Below are positions 7,477 to 33,744 of a stretch of 64,000 nt of DNA, piece by piece. Source of the DNA: Halopseudomonas pelagia (lineage in GTDB: Bacteria > Pseudomonadota > Gammaproteobacteria > Pseudomonadales > Pseudomonadaceae); the NCBI RefSeq assembly GCF_009497895.1, contig NZ_CP033116.1, forward strand, positions 2,108,001 to 2,172,000, read 5' to 3'. The notes under the pieces were generated by a model. The model did not search any database, was not told the origin of the DNA, and saw only the letters and a program-made list of their open reading frames with translations. Within the stretch, counting starts at the first letter, position 1. Every line of letters starts with the position of its first letter. Position numbers and translations under genes: made by a program.

Positions 7477-8379
7477 TTAGCTTAGAAAGGCGGGGTGCGC
7501 GCGCAGCCTGGGCGTGGCAAAGTCGATAAAAGTACGCACTCGCGCCGCCGCCCGGCGACCATCACGGTAGATCAACTGTGCTGGTATGCCCTGGATCGCA
7601 AAGCTGCCCAGTACCGGCTCCAGCAAACCGCTCTGCAGCTCATCATGCGCCTCATAACTCATACAGCGAATCAGCCCCAGCCCCAGGGTTGCGGCTTTAA
7701 TGGCGGCGCGCTGGGTGGTGCAGGTCAGCACCGGCGCCGGTTTCACCACACGCGTGGAGCGCTCTGAACAAAAGCGCCACTCACTTTCCTCGCCAGAGGC
7801 GGTGGTCAGCACGCTGCGATGGGCTTTAAGGTCCTCGAGCGTCTGCGGGCGCCCCCACTTAGCCAGGTAAGCGGGTGAGCCGCAGACGATCGGCTGCACC
7901 GTCCCCACCGCCATGGCGAACTCCGAGGAGTCCGGCAAATGGCCCACCACCAGCGCAACATCAATATTGTCCTCAAGCAGTTTTGGCAGACCTTCGCTGG
8001 CGCGGGTGTGCAAGTACACGTCGGGAAACGCTGCAAGATAGTCGAGGGCGATGGGCGTCAAGATCTGCTGATCCATCAGCATCGGCAGTGCCACGTTCAA
8101 TTGCCCGGCTGGGCGCGCATGCAGGCCGGCGGCGGAGCGTTCGGCAGCGGCCGTATGCTCTAGTATCTGCTCGCAACTGGCAGCAAACAGCTCGCCCGCA
8201 GGGCTAAGTTCGACGCCGCGCGGGCCGCGCAGCAGCAGGGTGTTGTTCAGGCGTGCTTCCAATTCAGCGATGCTGCGCATAACGGTCACGGTCGAGAGCT
8301 CTAGCTGGCGCGCTGCCGCGGCAAGGCTCCCGGCTTGCGCCACGGCTTCGAACACCTGCATCTGACGGTAATGGCTCAT
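7477..8379 (-). CDS. LysR-family transcriptional regulator
   Basis: 300 residues: an N-terminal winged helix-turn-helix (FEAVAQAGSLAAAARQLELSTVTVMRSIAELEARL, residues about 8-42) and a LysR substrate-binding domain (QLNVALPMLMDQQILTPIALDYLAAFPDVYL onward). It is of the small TFDRD-like subgroup that often acts on oxidoreductase or exporter genes. It starts 3 bp after the next LysR gene's stop and reads in the same direction as the GST operon, 178 bp ahead of it. Control of that operon is a reasonable guess only, since the usual divergent layout is absent. Confidence 0.92.
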   Translation of the reverse strand: MSHYRQMQVFEAVAQAGSLAAAARQLELSTVTVMRSIAELEARLNNTLLLRGPRGVELSPAGELFAASCEQILEHTAAAERSAAGLHARPAGQLNVALPMLMDQQILTPIALDYLAAFPDVYLHTRASEGLPKLLEDNIDVALVVGHLPDSSEFAMAVGTVQPIVCGSPAYLAKWGRPQTLEDLKAHRSVLTTASGEESEWRFCSERSTRVVKPAPVLTCTTQRAAIKAATLGLGLIRCMSYEAHDELQSGLLEPVLGSFAIQGIPAQLIYRDGRRAAARVRTFIDFATPRLRAHPAFLS

Positions 8380-8382
8380 ACG

Positions 8383-9297
8383 CTAGAGTCTCCCAGCCCT
8401 CTGCAGCGCCGGCTCCTGCAAAAACCGTTCGGCACAAAAGTCGACAAAAGTACGTACTTTAGCCGGAACCCGCCCGCCACCCTGATAGAGAATGTGCACC
8501 GGCAACGCCGCTGCTTCATAGGTATCGAGAATAATCTCCAGCTCGCCCTTGGCTACCAGCTCGGCCACCTGATAAGACAAAACCCGTGTCAGCCCCCACC
8601 CCAAGCGCGCCGCATTGATCGCCGCCCGGTTGGAACTCACCAACAAACGCGGCTTGGGGTGCAGGGAAGTGGTGCCGGTTGGCAGGTTGAACTGCCAGTC
8701 GGTGAGAAGGCTGCTGGCAGAGGACATCACAATAGGCGCAGTCAATACGTCCTTAGGTGCTTTCGGCCGACCAAATTCCTCGAGAAAGGCCGGGGCAGCG
8801 CAAATCACCGGGCGGATATGCCCGACCTTGATCGCCTGCAGGCCGGTGTCTGGCAAGTGACCGATGCGTATGGCCACATCCACGCCCTCGTCGACCATGT
8901 TTACCAGTCGATCCACCAGCAGGGCGTTGATAGCCACCTGCGGATGCGCAGCCAGGTACTCGGTAATCTGCGGAATCAGATACAGCTCGCCGAACATCAC
9001 CGGCGCCGTCACCGTGAGATTACCCCGGGCTCGGATGCTGCTGCCGGTGGCCAGCTCTTCGGCTTCGTCCAACTCCAGCAGGATGCGCTTGCAGTCTTCC
9101 ACATAGCGCCGCCCGGCTTCGGTCAGGCGCAAGGTGCGCGTGCTGCGTGCGAGCAGCACCGTACCCAGGCGTTTCTCCAGGCCGGCAATCACGCGCGTCA
9201 CGCTCGGCGGCGACATGCCCATCAGCTTGGCACCCCCGGCAAAGCTTTTCGCCTCCGCCACGGCCAGCAGTACTTTCATTTCCTGAAACCTGTCCAC
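8383..9297 (-). CDS. LysR-family transcriptional regulator
   Basis: 304 residues with a typical LysR helix-turn-helix (LLAVAEAKSFAGGAKLMGMSPPSVTRVIAGLEKRL) and an effector domain starting at GNLTVTAPVMFGELYLIP. It is clearly related to the LysR gene lying 3 bp downstream: both share the order VATF-like effector start, HLPD motif and a C-terminal VRTF(V/I)DF. This suggests a local duplication. Both read on the minus strand and are probably co-transcribed. The next gene upstream, a DMT exporter, is on the same strand 135 bp away. Confidence 0.92.
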   Translation of the reverse strand: MDRFQEMKVLLAVAEAKSFAGGAKLMGMSPPSVTRVIAGLEKRLGTVLLARSTRTLRLTEAGRRYVEDCKRILLELDEAEELATGSSIRARGNLTVTAPVMFGELYLIPQITEYLAAHPQVAINALLVDRLVNMVDEGVDVAIRIGHLPDTGLQAIKVGHIRPVICAAPAFLEEFGRPKAPKDVLTAPIVMSSASSLLTDWQFNLPTGTTSLHPKPRLLVSSNRAAINAARLGWGLTRVLSYQVAELVAKGELEIILDTYEAAALPVHILYQGGGRVPAKVRTFVDFCAERFLQEPALQRAGRL

Positions 9298-9432
9298 AGT
9301 TACCGCCTTGCCTGGAACCTGATTGGTAGCACACAGCGTAGCGGCGTTGGATAGGGATGCGCTACTTGTCCCGGTGGTTTGGCTGAACTAACGAGCGATA
9401 TAGGTTGCTGCTGACGATCACTTGAGGCGAGC

Positions 9433-10293
9433 TCAAGTGGGACGTGTGCGCGCCCCCCGCTTACTGATCCACAGCGCTAGAATGATCAGGCTGCCGCCGA
9501 TCGAAAGCGGCAGTAGAGCGGTGTCAGTGCGCCAGACCACCAGATTGAGCAGCAAACCCACTGGTACGGACAGATTGTTCATCACCGCGAGTGTGCCGGC
9601 GGATACCAGGGTTGCGCCCTTGTTCCAGCAGAACTGTCCGACCGCCGTGGCAAGCACCCCCATCCATAGCAGCACGCCCCATTGCGTAGACGTGGTTGGT
9701 AACTGCTCGGGATCGCCGAACAGCAGCCACGCAGGCAACACCACCAGCAGCGCGCCGAGGAAGAAGTAACCGAAGCGTCGATATAGCGGGATCTCCGACG
9801 GAAAGTGCTGGGTCAGGTGCTTGTAACCGATCTGCCCGCTTGCGAAGGTGAAGTTGGCCAGTTGCATCAATAGAAAGCCGCCAAGAAAACCAGCAGAAAT
9901 CCCGTCGAATCGTATGACCCCCGCGCCCAGCACGGCAACCCCCGCGGCCACAAGTGCCCAGGGATTGAATCGCCGCCGCAGCGCATCGTCAATCAGCGTC
10001 ACGTGCAGCGGCGTCAGCACCGTGAACAGCAGCACTTCCGCCACGCTCAGCAGATTGAAGCTCAGGTACAGGCAAATGTACGTCACGCCAAATTGCAACG
10101 ACCCCACCAGCGTGACCCCGCCGATAAATCGGGGATCGACGCCGCGCCAGCGTGTCAGCGGCAGAAACACCAGGCCGGCCAGCAGAACGCGGGTCAGCAC
10201 TGAAAAGTAGGGATCCACCTGTCCGGCCAGATGGGCACCGATCAGATTGAAGGACACGGCCCAGAGCACCGTGACGAAGAGCAGATAGGTCAT
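9433..10293 (-). CDS. DMT-superfamily (EamA) transporter
   Basis: About 286 residues with two EamA repeats and roughly ten membrane helices (MTYLLFVTVLWAVSFNLIG at the N-terminus). It probably exports a metabolite or amino acid-like solute from the inner membrane; the substrate is not readable. The frame is open to 10407, but the ATG at 10293 follows a TGGAGGCGAC ribosome binding site and starts directly with the first helix, so the longer form with a basic leader is unlikely. It diverges from tenA, with about 190 bp between the two starts. Confidence 0.88.
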   Translation of the reverse strand: MTYLLFVTVLWAVSFNLIGAHLAGQVDPYFSVLTRVLLAGLVFLPLTRWRGVDPRFIGGVTLVGSLQFGVTYICLYLSFNLLSVAEVLLFTVLTPLHVTLIDDALRRRFNPWALVAAGVAVLGAGVIRFDGISAGFLGGFLLMQLANFTFASGQIGYKHLTQHFPSEIPLYRRFGYFFLGALLVVLPAWLLFGDPEQLPTTSTQWGVLLWMGVLATAVGQFCWNKGATLVSAGTLAVMNNLSVPVGLLLNLVVWRTDTALLPLSIGGSLIILALWISKRGARTRPT

Positions 10294-25257: not shown

Positions 25258-25716
25258 TCAGCGCTTGCTGGTCAGCGTGTTGTAGCTGTTGATCAAGTTG
25301 CGATAGTCAGGAATGTGATTCGAGAACAGGGTCCCCAGACCTTCAACATCATTGCGCCAATCGCGGTGCAGCTCACACGCTAGCCCGAACCAGGTCATCA
25401 TCTGGGCTCCGGCTGCGGACATGCGATCCCAGGCGGCATCGCGCGTCAAGGGATTAAAGGTCCCAGATGCGTCTGCTACCACGAAAACCTCATAGTCTTC
25501 TTCCAGGGCTGACAGCACCGGGAAAGCAACGCAAACCTCAGTGACTACGCTCGCCACGATCAGCTGCTTTTTGCCAGTGGCTTTAATCGCCTTGACGAAG
25601 TCTTCGTTGTCCCAGGCATTGATCTGGCCCGGGCGGGCAATATAGGGCGCGTCCGGGAAAATCTCCTTCAGCTCAGGCACCAGCGGGCCATTCGGGCCGT
25701 CTTCAAAACTGGGTGG
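25258..25716 (-). pseudogene. 5'-truncated YcaC-like isochorismatase-family hydrolase
   Basis: The frame encodes the C-terminal ~two thirds of a YcaC-type cysteine hydrolase: SFEDGPNGPLVPELK, PYIARPGQINAWDNEDF, the nucleophile Cys in VVTEVCVAFP, and the conserved C-terminal NHIPDYRN. Homology stops near 25711, where the frame runs into a stop (TAG, 25719-25717). About 60-65 N-terminal residues that carry the catalytic Asp are missing, along with any start or ribosome binding site. YcaC-like proteins are about 208 residues. An internal ATG gives 140 residues, which would lack part of the catalytic triad. The break coincides with the upstream edge of the pseudo-sedolisin gene. Confidence 0.8.
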
Positions 25717-25781
25717 CTATTCAGTCAATGGGCATTTATGCTCACCGCACTTCAGGCACCTCTGCCCCAATAAGGATAACA

Positions 25782-27074
25782 ATGAAACACACTAAAACAT
25801 GGATGCGGCGCGGTATGTGCCTGGCTGTCTGTCTCGTGGCCGTGGGGTTGTACGGATGCAAGGCCGAGAGCACCGACCAGGACGTGCCTGCGGAGGAAGA
25901 CGCGGAGAATGTGCCTGAAGCGGACGATTTCCAGCACGCATTTGTCCTGGCTTCTGACGATGCTCCCGTGCTGACCTCCAGCTTTCGGCAGACCATGAAC
26001 TTGCAGAGCTCGGCCAGTGCGTCCTCTTCAAGTGGGTGGACACCTCAGCAGTTTCTGGATGCCTATAACGTGGATTCCGTTGTTACAGCGGGCAACAAGC
26101 CCCGAGGATATGGAATCAAAATAGCCATCATCACGGCCTACCACTACTCGAACCTGCAGAGCGATCTGAATACCTGGGCAAGGAAGTTTTCCATAAATCC
26201 GATTAGCTTGAACATCATCAACCAGGCCGGCACCGTCAGGAATAGCAACTGGGCCATACAAAGTAACATAGCTGTTCAGATGGTCAACGCCGTGAGCCCG
26301 GGGGCGACTGTCTATGTGATTGAAGCCAAATCGAATACTCAGAGTGATATGAGGATCGCCGTACAAACCGCGGTCAATCTAGGTGTAGATATTGTCTCGA
26401 TGCCGTTTGGCGCTCGCGAGTTCTCTGGGGAAAACTCCATGGCTTCCATGTTTGCCAAGACTCAAATCGCGTGGATAGTGGCAGCGGGCACTGGCGCTGG
26501 GCCGACCTTTCCGGGGACCTCTCCAGACGTTGTCGCGGTGGGTAGCACGTCAGCCAGTTTGTCAGCCAGTTCGGTACTCCTGTCTGAGACCGCAGTGGCC
26601 AACTCAGCAGCTGGCATGTCAATTTATCAAAGAATGCCCAGTTACCAGATGATTCCAGCCGTCCAGAATGCCAACACCACGGCTTTTCGGTCCGTCCCGG
26701 ACGTAGCCTTTCACGCTGATTCGGGGCACGGCGCCCAGATTTATGTATCAATACTCGGAGGGTGGTACGTTATAGGCGGCAATGCGGTATCGACGGCATT
26801 CTTCACGGGTGTGGTCGCCATAGCCGATCAAGTCAGGAAAGGCGGTACCAAGCCAATGTTGTCTACCATTCACACCTCGCCCAACCCGCTTCAGCGCAGC
26901 CTCTACGGGCTTATGTCCACAAACGGAGGGCCCACCAATTCCACCGTCCTCAACGACGTCGTGGATGGATACTCCGGCGAGGGATCTTATCCAGCAGGCC
27001 CCGGCTACGATATCGCGACCGGCCTGGGCTCGTTGGATGTGAAGGCATTTGTCGACTACATGTATAACCAGTAG
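25782..27074 (+). CDS. S53 sedolisin-like lipoprotein lacking catalytic residues
   Basis: 430 residues. A lipoprotein signal ends at C26 (VGLYGC), followed by an acidic linker and an S53-type domain from about residue 86 (TPQQFLDAYNV). The fold is clear from VQMVNAVSPGATVYVI, VPDVAFHAD, and the C-terminal calcium-site pattern NDVVDG...AGPGYDIATGLGS. Gapless reading against the sedolisin/kumamolisin motifs as I recall them puts Q160 and A164 in place of the catalytic Glu and Asp, T237 for the oxyanion Asp, and A335 for the nucleophile Ser (GGNAVST instead of GGTSxxx). The ~180-residue propeptide of active members is absent too. It therefore looks like a pseudoprotease anchored in the outer membrane. 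Start chosen at 25782, after ATAAGGATAACA. Confidence 0.85.
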   Translation: MKHTKTWMRRGMCLAVCLVAVGLYGCKAESTDQDVPAEEDAENVPEADDFQHAFVLASDDAPVLTSSFRQTMNLQSSASASSSSGWTPQQFLDAYNVDSVVTAGNKPRGYGIKIAIITAYHYSNLQSDLNTWARKFSINPISLNIINQAGTVRNSNWAIQSNIAVQMVNAVSPGATVYVIEAKSNTQSDMRIAVQTAVNLGVDIVSMPFGAREFSGENSMASMFAKTQIAWIVAAGTGAGPTFPGTSPDVVAVGSTSASLSASSVLLSETAVANSAAGMSIYQRMPSYQMIPAVQNANTTAFRSVPDVAFHADSGHGAQIYVSILGGWYVIGGNAVSTAFFTGVVAIADQVRKGGTKPMLSTIHTSPNPLQRSLYGLMSTNGGPTNSTVLNDVVDGYSGEGSYPAGPGYDIATGLGSLDVKAFVDYMYNQ

Positions 27075-27205
27075 CCTGCGTGCGCTTATAGCTACAGCCA
27101 GCTCGACCCGACCGTCGCCTATCAGGCTTGTTGGCGATGGTCGGGAGGGCGCTGTCTTTCGGCAATGGCATGGCGCACCGAACCTGTGATATTTGGCTCT
27201 GGTCA

Positions 27206-28558
27206 CTAGCGCGGACTAACCACCCCACATGAGCAGTCATATATCACCTGCGCCACCTTTCTCAGCCCTACCGCCAACAATTGGAAGCTAACGGAGCCGA
27301 GCGCAATACGGATTGCCTGCGGCACATGCTCAGAAGTGCAAAAGGGCTCCGCCGAGGACACGGCGATATCGGAGCGCAACAACTCCATCACCACCTGCTC
27401 TGCGCGCACGTCGACCGGAAGATGAACCCACAGGAAGTAAGACGCCGCATAGCCAGAGCATTGCAAGCCTTCCAGTATCTGCCTCGCCAATGCCTGCCGC
27501 TTGGTCGCATCCTCACGCTTCGCTGCCTCCAAACGGGCTAAGATCCCATCTTCTATCCACTCGCACACGATTGCGGTCATCAAGCCTGGCGTGTTCCAGG
27601 TTGTTGCTCTTACGGCGCGTTCTATCTTGGGTACCCATTCTATCGGCGCCACAACATAGCCCACCCGCAGCCCGGTACCTGCGCTTTTGGAGAAGCCTGA
27701 TACGTAGATCGTGGACTCCGGCGCCAAGGTGGCCAACGGCGGCGGGGGGTTAGCCACCAGGAACGCGTAGGCAGCATCTTCGATAATCAGCAGACTGTGC
27801 TCGCGTGCTATGTCCACCAGCCGTTGTCGTTGCGCAAGGCTCATGATCCAGCCAAGCGGGTTGTGCAGTGTCGGCATAACATAGACCGCGCGCACTTTCC
27901 GTTGCCTGCAAAGTAGCGCCAGCGAGTCCAGATCGGGGCCGTGGCCAGAAGAGGGGAGAGGCAACAACTCCAGATGCTGGGCTTCCCCCAGGGCCTTGAA
28001 GCCGGAATAAGCCAGGCTGTCGACTGCCACCACGTCGCCCGGATTGAGCATGGCTATGGCAGTGACGGCCAAGCCATGTTGCGCTCCGTTGACTATTACT
28101 ACCTGATCCGCCGTCGTCCGCAATCCGCGGCGAACCAAGTGCTTGGCAACCGTTGCACGCTCATGTGTTCGACCGGCATGGGGCTGGTAACGCAGCAGCG
28201 CCTCCAGATCACCGCCAGAAGCTATCCGCCGCAACGTGCTGCGTAAAAGCTCCGTTTGCTCAGGCAGCTCGGGGTAATTGAAATTGAGGTCCAGCATGGC
28301 GGGCGCCGTTGAGTGCTGATCGATCCCATGCCCCGGCGGCATGGCAATCTCTCGCACATAGGTGCCCCTTCCTGCCTCGCCACTGACCAATCCAATTGCG
28401 GCCAGCTCGGTATAGATCCGCGACGCAGTTACCAAAGCGATGCCTTCCTTTGCGGCCAGGGCGCGGTGGGTGGGAAGACGCGTGCCAGGGGCCAGCTTGC
28501 CCGCACGAATATCGGCCGCCAGAGAATCGACCAGTGCTTTATAACGGTTGCGAGCCAT
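27206..28558 (-). CDS. MocR-family PLP-dependent regulator
   Basis: About 450 residues: a GntR winged helix (residues ~1-70; LAADIRAGKLAPGTRLPTHRALAAKEGIALVTASRIYTEL) joined to a type I aminotransferase-fold domain (HGLAVTAIAMLNPGDVV, PTLHNPLGW, EDAAYAFLV, and the PLP-binding Lys in VSGFSKSAGTGLRVGYV). MocR proteins use PLP or amino compounds as effectors and often control a divergent neighbour, here the DJ-1-like gene 85 bp away. Starts at 28579 (TTG), 28570 and 28558 are possible; 28558 best fits the family N-terminus. Confidence 0.92.
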   Translation of the reverse strand: MARNRYKALVDSLAADIRAGKLAPGTRLPTHRALAAKEGIALVTASRIYTELAAIGLVSGEAGRGTYVREIAMPPGHGIDQHSTAPAMLDLNFNYPELPEQTELLRSTLRRIASGGDLEALLRYQPHAGRTHERATVAKHLVRRGLRTTADQVVIVNGAQHGLAVTAIAMLNPGDVVAVDSLAYSGFKALGEAQHLELLPLPSSGHGPDLDSLALLCRQRKVRAVYVMPTLHNPLGWIMSLAQRQRLVDIAREHSLLIIEDAAYAFLVANPPPPLATLAPESTIYVSGFSKSAGTGLRVGYVVAPIEWVPKIERAVRATTWNTPGLMTAIVCEWIEDGILARLEAAKREDATKRQALARQILEGLQCSGYAASYFLWVHLPVDVRAEQVVMELLRSDIAVSSAEPFCTSEHVPQAIRIALGSVSFQLLAVGLRKVAQVIYDCSCGVVSPR

Positions 28559-28642
28559 CCCTATTTGCATCCATGACAATTATTTGATTGTTATGGTCTT
28601 CCGGTTGAAGCTCTTTGGCAACGCCTATTCAGGAGCCCTGCC

Positions 28643-29302
28643 ATGCATATCAGTATTCTCACTTTTGAAGGCTTTAACGAACTCGACTCGTTGATTGCTT
28701 TCGGCGTCCTTAATCGTATAAAGCAGCCCGGCTGGCGAGTGACGATAGCGAGCCCTGAGCGGCGCGTAACATCCATGAACGGTCTGGTACTGGAAAGCCA
28801 GGTGTCGTTGCACGAGGCCTGCGAAGCAGACGCTGTGATCATCGGCAGCGGTATCAAGACAAGAGAAATAGCCGCCGACGCCACGCTTATGGCTCAGCTT
28901 CGCCTCGATCCCGATGGGCAGCTATTGGCGGCCCAATGTTCAGGTGCGCTGATACTGGCCAAGCTGGGTCTGTTAAATGGCGTGCCGGCGTGTACCGACC
29001 TGACCACCAAACCCTGGTTACAGGATGCCGACGTTGAGGTGCTGAATCAGCCCTTTTATGCCGCAGGCAACGTTGCGACTGCAGGTGGCTGCTTGGCTTC
29101 GAACTATCTTGCGGCGTGGATTATTGCCCGTTTGATCAGCAAGGAAGCCGCAGCAGATGCGCTGCATTACGTTGCGCCAGTAGGTGAAAAAGAGGAATTT
29201 GTCAGCCACGTGATGGGGTTAGTTGGCGCATATTTCCATGACCAGAGTGCGCAGCCAACGATGGGCGGGGTCGGCACTGAATCTAGGATGCCACAGAAGT
29301 GA
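28643..29302 (+). CDS. DJ-1/PfpI family protein
   Basis: 219 residues of the DJ-1/PfpI class, with the nucleophile elbow LLAAQCSGALILAKLG and the DLTTKPWLQ and VATAGGCLAS segments that mark the ThiJ-like branch. Exact function unknown. It diverges from the MocR regulator, which is its likely controller. Its last 84 bp overlap the end of the LysR gene on the opposite strand, so both proteins share DNA at their C-terminal codons; the protein tail past about residue 190 may be dispensable. Confidence 0.88.
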   Translation: MHISILTFEGFNELDSLIAFGVLNRIKQPGWRVTIASPERRVTSMNGLVLESQVSLHEACEADAVIIGSGIKTREIAADATLMAQLRLDPDGQLLAAQCSGALILAKLGLLNGVPACTDLTTKPWLQDADVEVLNQPFYAAGNVATAGGCLASNYLAAWIIARLISKEAAADALHYVAPVGEKEEFVSHVMGLVGAYFHDQSAQPTMGGVGTESRMPQK

Positions 29303-30112
29303 AACGGTGAACTCGGCCGTGGGCACTGGGAGGGGAAAGCTGAACATCCCTTCCCGCAAACTGGCTGTGTGACGTTGAGGAACGCTGGCTATCAGGTCGG
29401 AACCTCGAGCCAAACCCAGAGCGGTCGAAAAGCCGCCCACGATCGTGGTGATCTTGCGGGTCAACCCTAGCAGGATGAGAGCGTCGTCGATTGGACCGCT
29501 ATCAGCCCCTCTCCGCGACACGAAAATATGCTTGCCGGAAGCATAAAGGGAAGGGGTGATCTCCCCTTGGCTTAACCGGTGACCTAGCCTCACCGCGCCG
29601 ACGTAGTTGTCCCGGAACAGCGCTTTTACCTTCAACTCCGGCGCTGTGGAAGCCTCGATTACTCCAGTTTCCAGGTCGACGCTGCCATCGCGCAGTGACT
29701 GGCTGTCTTTATCTGGCTTCTGCACAAAAAATAACCGGACCCCAGGAGCCTGCTCTGCGATGCGCGCTATCAACTCAGGTCCAAAGCACTCCACAAAGCC
29801 TTCGCTGGTTCGCAGCGTGAAGGTTCTGACCAGGTTGTTAAGGTCGAGTGTTTCTGCAGGACGCAATATTTCCTGGCCATCGCGCACGAGCTGACTGACC
29901 CGGTCGCGCAACTCGAGAGCCCTTGGCGTCGGCACCAGCCCTCGTCCGGCTCTGACCAGCAGGGGGTCGCCCATTGTCTCGCGCAGTCGAGCGAGTGCCC
30001 GGCTCATTGCCGACGGGCTCAAGCGCAAGCGTTTAGCCGCGCGCGCAACACTGCCCTCTGCGAGTACCGCATCAAGGGTGACGAGCAAGTTGAAGTCAGG
30101 GTTTGGCATCAA
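29219..30112 (-). CDS. LysR-family regulator (NodD/NahR-like)
   Basis: 297 residues with helix-turn-helix LDAVLAEGSVARAAKRLRLSPSAMSRALARLRETMGDPLLVRAGRGL, a form typical of the NodD/NahR/LinR branch, and an effector domain with FTLRTSEGFVECFGPELI. It diverges from a cupin-MFS gene pair with about 138 bp between starts, the classic layout for a LysR regulator and its target. Its 3' end overlaps the convergent DJ-1-like gene by 84 bp. Confidence 0.92.
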   Translation of the reverse strand: MMPNPDFNLLVTLDAVLAEGSVARAAKRLRLSPSAMSRALARLRETMGDPLLVRAGRGLVPTPRALELRDRVSQLVRDGQEILRPAETLDLNNLVRTFTLRTSEGFVECFGPELIARIAEQAPGVRLFFVQKPDKDSQSLRDGSVDLETGVIEASTAPELKVKALFRDNYVGAVRLGHRLSQGEITPSLYASGKHIFVSRRGADSGPIDDALILLGLTRKITTIVGGFSTALGLARGSDLIASVPQRHTASLREGMFSFPLPVPTAEFTVSLLWHPRFSADPAHRWLRTLVMEICAN

Positions 30113-30250
30113 CTGATCTTAGCTCAGCTTTCGCCATAAGTGGCGTCAGACGCATCTATAAAGTGCAAATGGTGCGTCTTCCGCCTTATAGCGTTGTTCC
30201 TTACAGTTTTGCTCAGCGGCGCATTCGCACCGAATTGAAAGGAAAGCGAC

Positions 30251-30790
30251 ATGAACTCTCTGGAAAAGTCCCTCGAAGCCATCAGCTCAATCTGGGGGCC
30301 GCTCAGTTCCGAGCTGGTTGCAGGCTGTAAACAGCAACTGGAAACCCTCTTACAAACACCGATTTCAGAGCAATGGTTGGCGACGCTATGCCTGGAACAG
30401 TTGGCTCAAAAAGAACTGTACCGGGATCCCGCTAATGGATTCGTGCTGTTGGCGCACTCTGAACCCCAGGAGCTATACCGAGCCCCCCACGACCACGGCC
30501 AAGGCTGGGTCATTTATGCCATTCAGCAAGGGGAAATCGAGATGGGCACTTATGCCCGGATCGAGCGGGCTGACGGAAAGGTTGAACTGGTCAAACGGGA
30601 TACCACCGTTCTTGGTGCCGGCATGGCTCAGGTGTATCTGCCAGGTGACATACATGACACCCGCTGCGTTTCAGGTCCCGCATTGCTATTCCGATTCACC
30701 GAGCGAGATCTGAAAAAAGAGGCTAAAGCCGGCACCTTGACCAGGTATGTATGGGGCGACGGCATCTGGACCCTTGAGCCCCAGCAGTGA
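30251..30790 (+). CDS. Cupin-like (double-stranded beta-helix) protein
   Basis: 179 residues resembling predicted metal-dependent enzymes of the cysteine-dioxygenase/cupin fold: APHDHGQGWVIYAIQQGEIEMGTY supplies a His-rich metal motif with Glu, and QVYLPGDIHDTRCVSG a second His. The substrate is unknown. It begins after GAAAGGAAAGCGAC, diverges from the LysR gene, and its stop overlaps the GTG start of the MFS exporter gene by three bases, so the two are translationally coupled. Confidence 0.8.
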   Translation: MNSLEKSLEAISSIWGPLSSELVAGCKQQLETLLQTPISEQWLATLCLEQLAQKELYRDPANGFVLLAHSEPQELYRAPHDHGQGWVIYAIQQGEIEMGTYARIERADGKVELVKRDTTVLGAGMAQVYLPGDIHDTRCVSGPALLFRFTERDLKKEAKAGTLTRYVWGDGIWTLEPQQ

Positions 30791-32127
30791 AAAGCGTCGT
30801 GCCTGAGCGAGGGCGGACGCTAGCGATCACTTGCGTGCTCACCGCCATGGTAATGGTGGTACTGAACACAGCTATTGCAAACGTCGCATTGCCCGCGATT
30901 GCAGTCTCGTTAGACGTATCTCCCGCTATGTCCGTCCGGGTAATCACTGCATACCAGATGGCATTGTTGATGGCGTTGCTGCCTTGCGCGGCCCTAGGCG
31001 AAAGACTGGGCTACCGTAGGGTATTTGCCCTGGGCGTCATGTTGTTCACGGCGGCTACAGTTTTGTGTTCCCTGGCGCCATCACTGCCTTGGCTGCTTGC
31101 TGCACGATTCATGCAAGGGCTTGGCGGCGCGGCAGTCATGGCACTTGGTGTTGCGCTGCTTCGCAGTGCCGTAGCTCCTGACCAACTCGGTGCGGCTATT
31201 GGCTGGAATGCCATGGCAGTGGCACTGTCTTCTGCTGCCGGTCCGGCTATCGGCGCATTGGTTCTATCGGCAACAACCTGGCCCTGGTTGTTTGCTCTGC
31301 AACTCCCTCTGGGTTTGTTCGTACTGCTCATTACACGCTCGCTTCACGATAATTATGGGACTGCCAGCAGCGTTGATTTATTGAGCATGGCGTTGAACGT
31401 CGGGATGTTCGGCACCTTGGTTTTTGCCGTCGATGTGTTTATCGACAGACCGATACTGGCAGGGGCCCTGTTAGCCGTATCGGGCTTACAACTGGTTGCA
31501 CTGGTAAAGCGTGAAATGCCAAAAAAGGCGCCGCTGATCCCCATCGACCTCCTGGGATCCCGATCATTCAGCCTTTCCGTATTGGCGTCTGTGTTTTGTT
31601 TTGCGGGCCAGACAGCCGCTATTGTCGCCTTGCCGTTTTACTTACAACGCAACCTTGAGCAAAGCGCCTTGATGACCGGCCTCTATATGGTCCCATGGCC
31701 CTTGTCTGTTGCTATCGCAGCACCATTGTCACGCCGCCTTGCAGACAAATATTCGACAGGTTTGATCTGCTTTTCAGGCGGTTTGCTGCTCGCTGTGGGC
31801 CTGGGAGCAACATCGTTGTGGCCGCTCGAGGAAGCCGTCTATCTCCTTATACCGTTCACAATGCTGTGTGGGTTAGGTTTCAGCCTTTTTAATGCCGCAA
31901 ATAATCGCAATCTGTTTCTCTCGGCATCCATCGAACGCAGCGGGGCGGCAGGAGGTATGCAAGGCACCGCTCGATTGCTTGGGCAGACTGCAGGGGCGGT
32001 GATTATGACGGTGATTTTTACTTTCGGTGAAATTGCAACGACACCTCGGATTGGGTTCGGGCTTGGCGCCGCTCTGACGTTATTCGCAGCGTTGCTGAGT
32101 ACCTTGCAAATCAAGAGGGTGGCATGA
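30787..32127 (+). CDS. MFS drug/metabolite exporter (DHA2-like)
   Basis: 446 residues, 12-14 membrane helices. The N-terminal half has the DHA2-type pattern (MVVLNTAIANVALPAIAVSL motif D1-like, LGERLGYRRVFALGV motif A, ARFMQGLGGAAVMALG). It should export a small organic compound using the proton gradient. The GTG start overlaps the cupin gene's stop, and the LysR gene upstream is the likely regulator. The enzyme plus exporter pairing suggests detoxification of one compound. Confidence 0.9.
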   Translation: MKSVVPERGRTLAITCVLTAMVMVVLNTAIANVALPAIAVSLDVSPAMSVRVITAYQMALLMALLPCAALGERLGYRRVFALGVMLFTAATVLCSLAPSLPWLLAARFMQGLGGAAVMALGVALLRSAVAPDQLGAAIGWNAMAVALSSAAGPAIGALVLSATTWPWLFALQLPLGLFVLLITRSLHDNYGTASSVDLLSMALNVGMFGTLVFAVDVFIDRPILAGALLAVSGLQLVALVKREMPKKAPLIPIDLLGSRSFSLSVLASVFCFAGQTAAIVALPFYLQRNLEQSALMTGLYMVPWPLSVAIAAPLSRRLADKYSTGLICFSGGLLLAVGLGATSLWPLEEAVYLLIPFTMLCGLGFSLFNAANNRNLFLSASIERSGAAGGMQGTARLLGQTAGAVIMTVIFTFGEIATTPRIGFGLGAALTLFAALLSTLQIKRVA

Positions 32128-32286
32128 CCCAGGCCAAGACCTCAGGGCATATGTTTTGCTCACTCTGGCGCACCGTTCCCTGCGTTGGTGGCCATCAGAC
32201 CAAAGACCTGATTTCGTTTGTGGTTTTTGCCCACCGGAAGGTTTACCTTTGAGGGAAGGCATTACGCCACTCTCAGGAGCCCATGG

Positions 32287-32608: not shown

Positions 32609-32893
32609 ATGAGTAACCAGCGATATTCACCCGAATTCAAAGACGAAGCGGTCCGGCAGATCGTCGAGAGGGGTTACCCAGTAGCCGAGGTCTCGGAGCG
32701 ACTGGGTGTCTCTGCCCACAGCCTTCACAAATGGGTCAAGGCAATCAAGCCAAGTAAATCCGACGAACAGACCTCAGAGCTCAACGACGCAAAGAAGGAA
32801 ATTCTTAAGCTGCGAGCCCAGCTTCGACGAACTGAGGAGGAGCGAGATATCTTAAAAAAGGCCGCTCGGTACTTCGCAAGCCAACCCGAGTGA
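32609..32893 (+). CDS. IS3-family transposase OrfA
   Basis: 94 residues (from the ATG after AGGAGGAAGTG): a helix-turn-helix (YSPEFKDEAVRQIVERGYPVAEVSERLGVSAHSLHKWVKA) and a leucine zipper-like coil (EILKLRAQLRRTEEERDILKKA) used for dimerisation and end binding. It overlaps OrfB by 4 bases. A slippery run near its end permits fusion to OrfB. Confidence 0.94.
   Translation: MSNQRYSPEFKDEAVRQIVERGYPVAEVSERLGVSAHSLHKWVKAIKPSKSDEQTSELNDAKKEILKLRAQLRRTEEERDILKKAARYFASQPE
32854..32860 (+). promoter_or_regulatory. Programmed -1 frameshift site (A AAA AAG)
   Basis: The heptamer A AAA AAG lies in the OrfA frame at the codons for Leu-Lys-Lys. Slipping back one base enters the OrfB frame, which is open from here on through 33744. 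This is the standard IS3-family way to make the OrfAB transposase. Confidence 0.8.
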
Positions 32894-33744
32894 AGTACCG
32901 ATTTGTTGCTGACCACAGTAGCGAGTTTCCGGTGCGCACCATGTGCAACCTGCTTGATATCTCGCGAAGCGGCTACTACGCATGGCGTTTCCGGCCGTTG
33001 TCCGACAGAGCTGTCGAAGATGCTCGGCTGCTGCCTTTGATACATGCTTCTTACGGTGCCAGCTTTGGCGTCTATGGCTATCGGCGGATATCAATGGACC
33101 TGAAAGAGACTGGTGAGACGTGCGGTAAGCACAGAGTCCATCGCATCATGAAGACCAATAATATCAAAGCGATACACGGTTATAAAAAGCCAAGAGTTGT
33201 GAACGGCCGACCATCGATCCTGGCACCCAATACGCTTAACCGGGAATTCAAGGTGACCACACCAGACACCGCTTGGGTAACCGATATTACTTACATTAGG
33301 ACCTGGCAAGGATGGCTATACCTGGCAGTCGTACTGGATCTGTTCTCACGCAGAGTAGTGGGCTGGTCCATGAAACCGACGCTAGCACGCGAGATCGTTC
33401 TAGACGCTCTCATGATGGCTGTCTGGCGTCGCAAACCCACTAGCCGAGTGCTGGTTCACTCAGATCAGGGGTCTCAATATGGCAGCGACGACTGGAGACG
33501 ATTCTGTCATCACCACAACCTTGAGCCAAGCATGAGTCGACGCGGCAATTGTTGGGACAATGCTGTCGCGGAGTCATTTTTTAGTAGTTTGAAAAAAGAG
33601 CGCATTAAGAAGCGCATCTACAAAACCAGAGACATAGCTCGCGCAGATATCTTTGATTACATCGAAGTGTTTTATAATCGAAATCGGCGCCACAGCCATC
33701 TCGGCGGCTTAAGCCCAGAGGCTTTCGAGGCCGCTTCAGCATGA
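32890..33744 (+). CDS. IS3-family transposase OrfB (DDE integrase domain)
   Basis: 284 residues with an HTH_21 region (YGYRRISMDLKETGE) and an rve integrase core. The DDE triad is visible: Asp in WVTDITYI, Asp in VHSDQGSQYGS and Glu in NAVAESFFSSLK, with the K/R-rich segment after it. The frame is intact, so the element may be active. It can be read alone from a GTG at 32890 (overlapping the OrfA stop) or as an OrfAB fusion through the upstream slippery site. Confidence 0.95.
   Translation: MKYRFVADHSSEFPVRTMCNLLDISRSGYYAWRFRPLSDRAVEDARLLPLIHASYGASFGVYGYRRISMDLKETGETCGKHRVHRIMKTNNIKAIHGYKKPRVVNGRPSILAPNTLNREFKVTTPDTAWVTDITYIRTWQGWLYLAVVLDLFSRRVVGWSMKPTLAREIVLDALMMAVWRRKPTSRVLVHSDQGSQYGSDDWRRFCHHHNLEPSMSRRGNCWDNAVAESFFSSLKKERIKKRIYKTRDIARADIFDYIEVFYNRNRRHSHLGGLSPEAFEAASA

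Follow-up and report, generated by a model that had tools for sequence, protein, structure and literature searches.

A predicted pseudo-sedolisin lipoprotein of Halopseudomonas pelagia and its relatives, which appear to have shed their catalytic residues step by step

The window, a stretch of 64,000 nucleotides from the Halopseudomonas pelagia genome (contig NZ_CP033116.1, positions 2,108,001 to 2,172,000), carries the gene of an S53-like protein whose features are listed in Table 1. The window protein is laid out as a signal with lipobox, an acidic linker and a sedolisin core with calcium-site residues. The lipobox was recognized by eye in the window protein and by pattern match in its relatives, with L-x-G-C occurring within the first 110 residues of 45 of the 61 members of the clade defined below; many of the other 16 are N-terminally short. 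Lipoproteins with Lys, not Asp, at position +2 are as a rule sorted to the outer membrane. About 70 bp upstream of the gene, starting at TGGCTATT, could be aligned between the window and the copies L004, L005 and L006, and were seen by eye in a fifth copy, L003. A sigma-70 consensus scan made no call in this upstream block, and a terminator scan made none at the hairpin downstream of the gene.

Table 1. Coordinates of the S53-like gene, its flanks and the protein positions discussed in the text (window numbering).
Feature	Position	Strand	Remarks
Isochorismatase-like hydrolase, 5'-truncated	25258..25680	-	Name by eye; 140 aa vs 208 aa in G006
Junction	25712..25713	.	Hydrolase region of genome G006 matches at 93% identity as far as 25712
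Conserved upstream block	25713..25781	+	TGGCTA (25714-25719), 17-bp spacer, TATGCT (25737-25742), later AAGGA; promoter-like by eye
CDS, predicted pseudo-sedolisin lipoprotein, 430 aa	25782..27074	+	Homologues with corresponding start
Lipobox Leu23-Tyr-Gly-Cys26, then Lys27	25848..25859	+	By eye in translation
FQHAFVL strand motif ahead of core, residues 50-56	25929..25949	+	Conserved; approximately FRHAHVL in relatives
Gln160 at catalytic Glu position	26259..26261	+	Opposite Glu of pro-kumamolisin and TPP1
Ala164 at catalytic Asp position	26271..26273	+	Opposite Asp of pro-kumamolisin and TPP1
Thr237 at oxyanion Asp position	26490..26492	+	Oxyanion column, family alignment
Ala335 at nucleophilic Ser position	26784..26786	+	Opposite Ser of TPP1 and pro-kumamolisin
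Asp392, calcium-site residue kept	26955..26957	+	58/58 filled rows of 61 clade members
Asp410, calcium-site residue kept	27009..27011	+	58/58 filled rows of 61 clade members
Strong hairpin without T run	27107..27145	+	Starts 32 bases past the stop codon; z -3.0 for 27072-27170

The window protein had no match to any Pfam or NCBIfam model. Its top single-sequence match in the PDB was Tripeptidyl-peptidase 1 (TPP1; E 9.7e-7), a human S53 member which the accessible part of the source describes as a lysosomal zymogen, active and complete in its four catalytic residues (PMC6278154). Residues 42-429 of the model aligned with pro-kumamolisin from its residue 134, and the model and this alignment together place the window protein in the sedolisin core fold. 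According to the accessible parts of two sources, S53 enzymes use Glu, Asp, Ser and an oxyanion Asp and carry a large prosegment (PMC6278154, PMC7804941). All four of these positions are occupied by other residues in the window protein (Table 1), the part of the TPP1 alignment with Q160 and A164 scoring only 1.8 bits, and the G-T-S-x-x-x-P motif of S53 reads G-N-A-V-S-T-A. Since Glu, Asp, oxyanion Asp and Ser are all missing, the known S53 chemistry cannot operate. The earlier note had described a sedolisin-fold protein without catalytic residues that keeps its C-terminal calcium site; the fold comparison and the residue alignments bear out the first part, and the conservation of both calcium-site aspartates in every filled row of the clade bears out the second. 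The window protein is best described as a predicted cell-surface lipoprotein with the shape of an acid protease in which all the cutting residues are replaced.

A further sign of a pseudoenzyme had been seen in the missing propeptide, and this argument fails because seven catalytically intact relatives lack the propeptide as well. No Pfam match to the propeptide domain PF09286 was found in the window protein or in the window genome, and none of ten relatives scanned at E<=1 contained it, those seven among them. What does precede the core, in lipoproteins whether or not they keep catalytic residues, is a motif of approximately F-R-H-A-H-V-L, in which A53 and V55 are nearly invariant and L56 is invariant (35 of 35 in the homologue alignment); strands lie at 51-52 and 55-56 of the window protein in the model. 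Given that the aligned range begins within the prosegment part of pro-kumamolisin, this motif may be a prosegment remnant.

Homologues were collected in three protein searches, each of which scored approximately 8,000 candidates with the most shared words. The first gave 333 matches at E<=1e-3, the best 120 of which were used; with the best 120 of 910 and the best 120 of 281 from two further searches the set came to 257 proteins among the matches listed. It was divided into the clade of the window protein (n=61; P0001-P0061 without P0055, plus P0078), five sister lipoproteins (P0055, P0080, P0180, P0181, P0187), a neighbouring branch (n=23; P0062-P0086 without P0078, P0080 and P0085, plus P0124) and a comparison set of the 168 others, among whose source names are Isosphaeraceae, Gemmataceae, Desulfosporosinus and one Hyperionvirus. 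These others have the same core as the window protein, but 166 of the 168 keep all four catalytic residues, the two exceptions carrying Asn at the oxyanion position; there was no propeptide match in the three that were scanned (P0089, P0097, P0099). All four sister lipoproteins with filled rows are intact at the catalytic columns, while the neighbouring branch consists of S53-like proteins with catalytic losses of their own (5 of 22 intact).

Of the 61 clade members, 56 have every catalytic column filled, and none of these has a fully intact site. Glu is kept in 20 of 58, Asp in 0 of 58, the oxyanion Asp in 31 of 61 and Ser in 41 of 59; only Asp164 is missing from 15 of the 56 (ESDS in nine, EQDS in six), and five more read ENDT. 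Clade members without the oxyanion Asp are always without Glu as well (28 of 28 among the 56, related rows that are not independent); P0079 and P0084 of the neighbouring branch are exceptions to this rule. The window protein shares its QATA with P0002 and P0004-P0006, and P0003, P0007, P0009, P0010 and P0012 have QATS. The substitutions first noticed in the window copy are thus family-wide and no private mutation. By the same token, the statement that all catalytic residues have been lost is correct for the window copy but falls short as the whole story: this copy is the endpoint of losses made step by step, and close copies of the Halopseudomonas type retain the Ser.

In a tree made without the catalytic columns from 88 of the first 120 proteins, the 54 clade members that were long enough formed one group (98/91), with P0055 and P0080, whose sites are intact, as sisters. 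The same group was recovered in a quick tree built from 164 of the 257 proteins and in a careful tree of 72 rows (58 of the 257 and 14 others, 13 of them from viral contigs). In both of these trees the lipoproteins all fall inside a larger set of related proteins, and the chosen outgroup is not one side of a branch. The lipoproteins are sister to the neighbouring branch in the 88-row tree and nested within it in the 164-row tree. On the 88-row tree the fewest kept/lost changes were 9 for Glu, 7 for Asp, 9 for the oxyanion Asp and 10 for Ser, counts that are blind to gain versus loss; losses are the sensible reading in surroundings that are intact. On the trees made, the whole clade is without the triad Asp, and Glu, oxyanion Asp and Ser are each missing in several separate lines. 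With QATA in some relatives and QATS in others, Ser probably went last in the lineage of the window protein. The emerging picture, drawn from sequence comparison, is of a little-known and patchily distributed bacterial family that seems to have shed its catalytic residues step by step.

A ranking of the 339 core columns by how much conservation they have lost in the clade, compared with the 168 others, put column 160 1st, 237 2nd, 164 3rd and 335 7th. Column 206 has lost conservation too, and so have 334 and 339 of the G-T-S-x-x-x-P motif, which suggests that the peptide cleft has not simply been retained. Median column entropy was 0.86 bits in the clade and 2.15 in the others. Two segments are conserved in the clade, N298-T-T-x-x-R303-S304 (298-304) and L377 to S387 (377-387), with such gained conservation inflated in part by the lower diversity of the clade compared with the 168 others, which makes it look more conserved everywhere.

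Gene DNA was read for five copies (the window, L003, L004, L005 and L006), and the frame is intact in four of them. Nei-Gojobori omega between the window and the other copies was 0.33 for L004 (bootstrap 0.24-0.45), 0.34 for L003 (0.26-0.44), 0.39 for L005 (0.29-0.50) and 0.50 for L006 (0.39-0.64). Two neighbouring genes compared with G006, which was taken to be the assembly of L004, had omega values of 0.09 (0.03-0.16) and 0.06 (0-0.19; 140 codons with few changes), so the value of the S53 gene is 3.7 and 5.5 times theirs, the 5.5-fold figure resting on 140 codons. Between the window and L004 approximately 20 stops would be expected under neutrality by a crude estimate, and 0 and 1 were seen; the L004 copy has a TAG at codon 38, and P0003, under the same species name as L004, is a protein of 431 aa. 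With omega below 1 in all window pairs and so few stops, selection maintains the protein, weakly. The suggestion in the earlier note that the gene is not decaying is supported, as far as plain decay goes, by these omega values and by the intact frame; the weak constraint and the nonsense codon in one strain nonetheless make relaxation part of the story. Catalytic residues lost across homologues on a scaffold under (weak) constraint are what is expected of a pseudoprotease.

At the left edge of the gene, the upstream block begins where identity to G006 ends, next to a hydrolase gene; the stretch that this gene lacks matches no other DNA of the window genome. On the right side, homology to the G006 locus resumes only at 32218. 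The coincidence of the junction with the start of the block, together with the truncated hydrolase, shows that the gene arrived with a rearrangement or at its edge. Positions 25713-32217 of the window are absent from the matching G006 locus and hold, besides the S53 gene, ORFs named by eye as a MocR-type regulator, a DJ-1-type protein, a LysR-type regulator and an MFS transporter; an IS3-type transposase ORF (name by eye) follows that segment at 32890-33744.

The gene is present in three of 37 genomes of the genus, and the same three carry it among 298 genomes of the family; 369 genomes of the class gave the window's own and one distant match. A pattern-based scan placed three loci in named genomes, namely H. 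laoshanensis, Haliea and a Burkholderiales MAG. Neighbours are mostly unlike between loci, which have the upstream block in common, and synonymous divergence between gene copies stays below 1 across orders. This low divergence and the patchy distribution suggest that the gene has moved between genomes and lineages together with its upstream region. In two genomes of the same genus the copies (G006 C1 68593 and G019 C1 3145770) adjoin pieces found within a few kb of each other in G013, a genome without the gene, and this may be a shared hotspot. Transport as plasmid or phage cargo found no backing: six weak plasmid matches were all below 60% identity with none covering 80%, and the phage collection gave no match. 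The only Rfam hit around the loci was a tRNA beside L005. Adjoining the Haliea gene copy, at L005:9459-10086, are tandem copies, approximately 170 bp each, of a segment that looks like the 3' end of a tRNA-Val together with a terminator-like stem.

We consider it probable, with moderate confidence, that the window protein is a lipid-anchored pseudo-sedolisin that binds a ligand. The protein would be lipidated at Cys26 and held in the outer membrane by its linker (Lys at +2), and its calcium-stabilized subtilisin-type scaffold would serve to bind a ligand, protein or peptide, either at the surface or in the periplasm, with the gene having presumably spread among genomes along with the upstream region. 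The interface would more likely be a clade-conserved segment (e.g., 298-304 or 377-387) than the old active site, as columns 206, 334 and 339 have also lost conservation and the active-site columns vary freely. Of the alternatives, slow decay ranks ahead of a surface decoy, and a decoy ahead of new chemistry. A relic in slow decay, having lost its enzyme function and persisting only through copying between genomes, would account for the weak constraint (omega 0.33-0.50), the nonsense codon of L004, the patchy presence and the change of catalytic residues in many lines. We nevertheless find it doubtful, as omega is clearly below 1 in all four window pairs (upper bounds no higher than 0.64), four of the five copies read as DNA have an intact frame, the scaffold columns are strongly conserved with loss focused on the catalytic columns, and the upstream block is retained.

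Rather improbable is a fast-changing surface decoy or shield against proteases, phages or predators, a role in which catalysis would be dispensable and transfer and diversity would be favoured. Such a role would accommodate the predicted lipoprotein nature, the raised omega, the copies in Haliea and a Burkholderiales MAG, and the S53 proteins with lipobox-like signals in viral-collection contigs. Against it, the window protein had no PADLOC match and no match in the phage collection, and the S53 proteins from viruses are distant and catalytically intact. That the protein is still an enzyme, through other residues or a Ser-Glu pair in ESDS/EQDS relatives and with new chemistry in the window form, draws on the 15 of 56 filled clade members that lack only Asp164 and the five ENDT proteins. 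It is very unlikely, however, for the window form is without all four groups and no new Ser/His/Asp set was apparent by eye among the conserved columns.

Set beside described S53 members of MEROPS, such as sedolisin/pseudomonalisin and kumamolisin, the predicted pseudo-sedolisin of the window differs in its lipobox and in the absence of both the propeptide domain and the four catalytic residues (Glu, Asp, oxyanion Asp and Ser); TPP1, its top single-sequence match in the PDB, has all four catalytic residues where the window protein has none. Pseudoproteases have been described in S8, in rhomboids and in further families. Among them, CspC and CspA of Clostridioides difficile are in the accessible descriptions soluble S8 pseudoproteases of spore germination that act with the related protease CspB, whereas the window protein belongs to S53 and has no second homologue in its genome. 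A role as regulator of a paralogue is unlikely in the window genome, which has a single homologue at E<=1e-3 and no propeptide domain. In the accessible parts of the open-licence literature no description of an S53 pseudoprotease family of this sort was found, and an earlier account may exist elsewhere; the class 'non-peptidase homologue' is employed in the accessible part of PMC7804941, and MEROPS entries possibly list such proteins under it. Stages of the loss survive today, with intact sisters, clade members that lack the triad Asp alone and others that lack all four residues, which opens the order and the consequences of losing a catalytic centre to direct tests on natural proteins.

As to deeper origins, an S53 protein from a giant-virus-like lineage might have been taken up by bacteria, gained a lipoprotein signal, lost its catalytic residues one by one in several lines and become a solitary mobile surface binding module with its own promoter. 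Consistent with this, the lipoproteins are nested in a larger group that mostly has no evident signal and an AT-rich-type amino-acid make-up and includes P0174, labelled Hyperionvirus, and the neighbouring branch, which is carried on metagenome contigs (that of P0076 has 493,516 bases), has catalytic losses of its own. We think such an origin unlikely, given that P0174 is basal on a long branch and that the outgroups of the 164-row and 72-row trees do not form one side of a branch. When viral sequences were scanned with A2, distant relatives alone came up (27-30% identity), and scans with P0121 and P0067 yielded no relatives. Several S53 proteins in the viral collection have all four residues intact and a lipobox-like signal by eye (L042:2738-4024, L044:9650-12217, L045:9689-11233, L047:9656-11164 and L050:9785-11065), with a terminase near the S53 gene in L047 and an RNA ligase near that in L045; phage-borne S53 lipoproteins of this kind merit separate attention. 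Intact S53 proteins also lie on the viral contigs L008, L009 and L010 at approximately 7900-9900, where the neighbours match phage tail-fibre and virion families (L008, L009) or a replicative helicase (L010).
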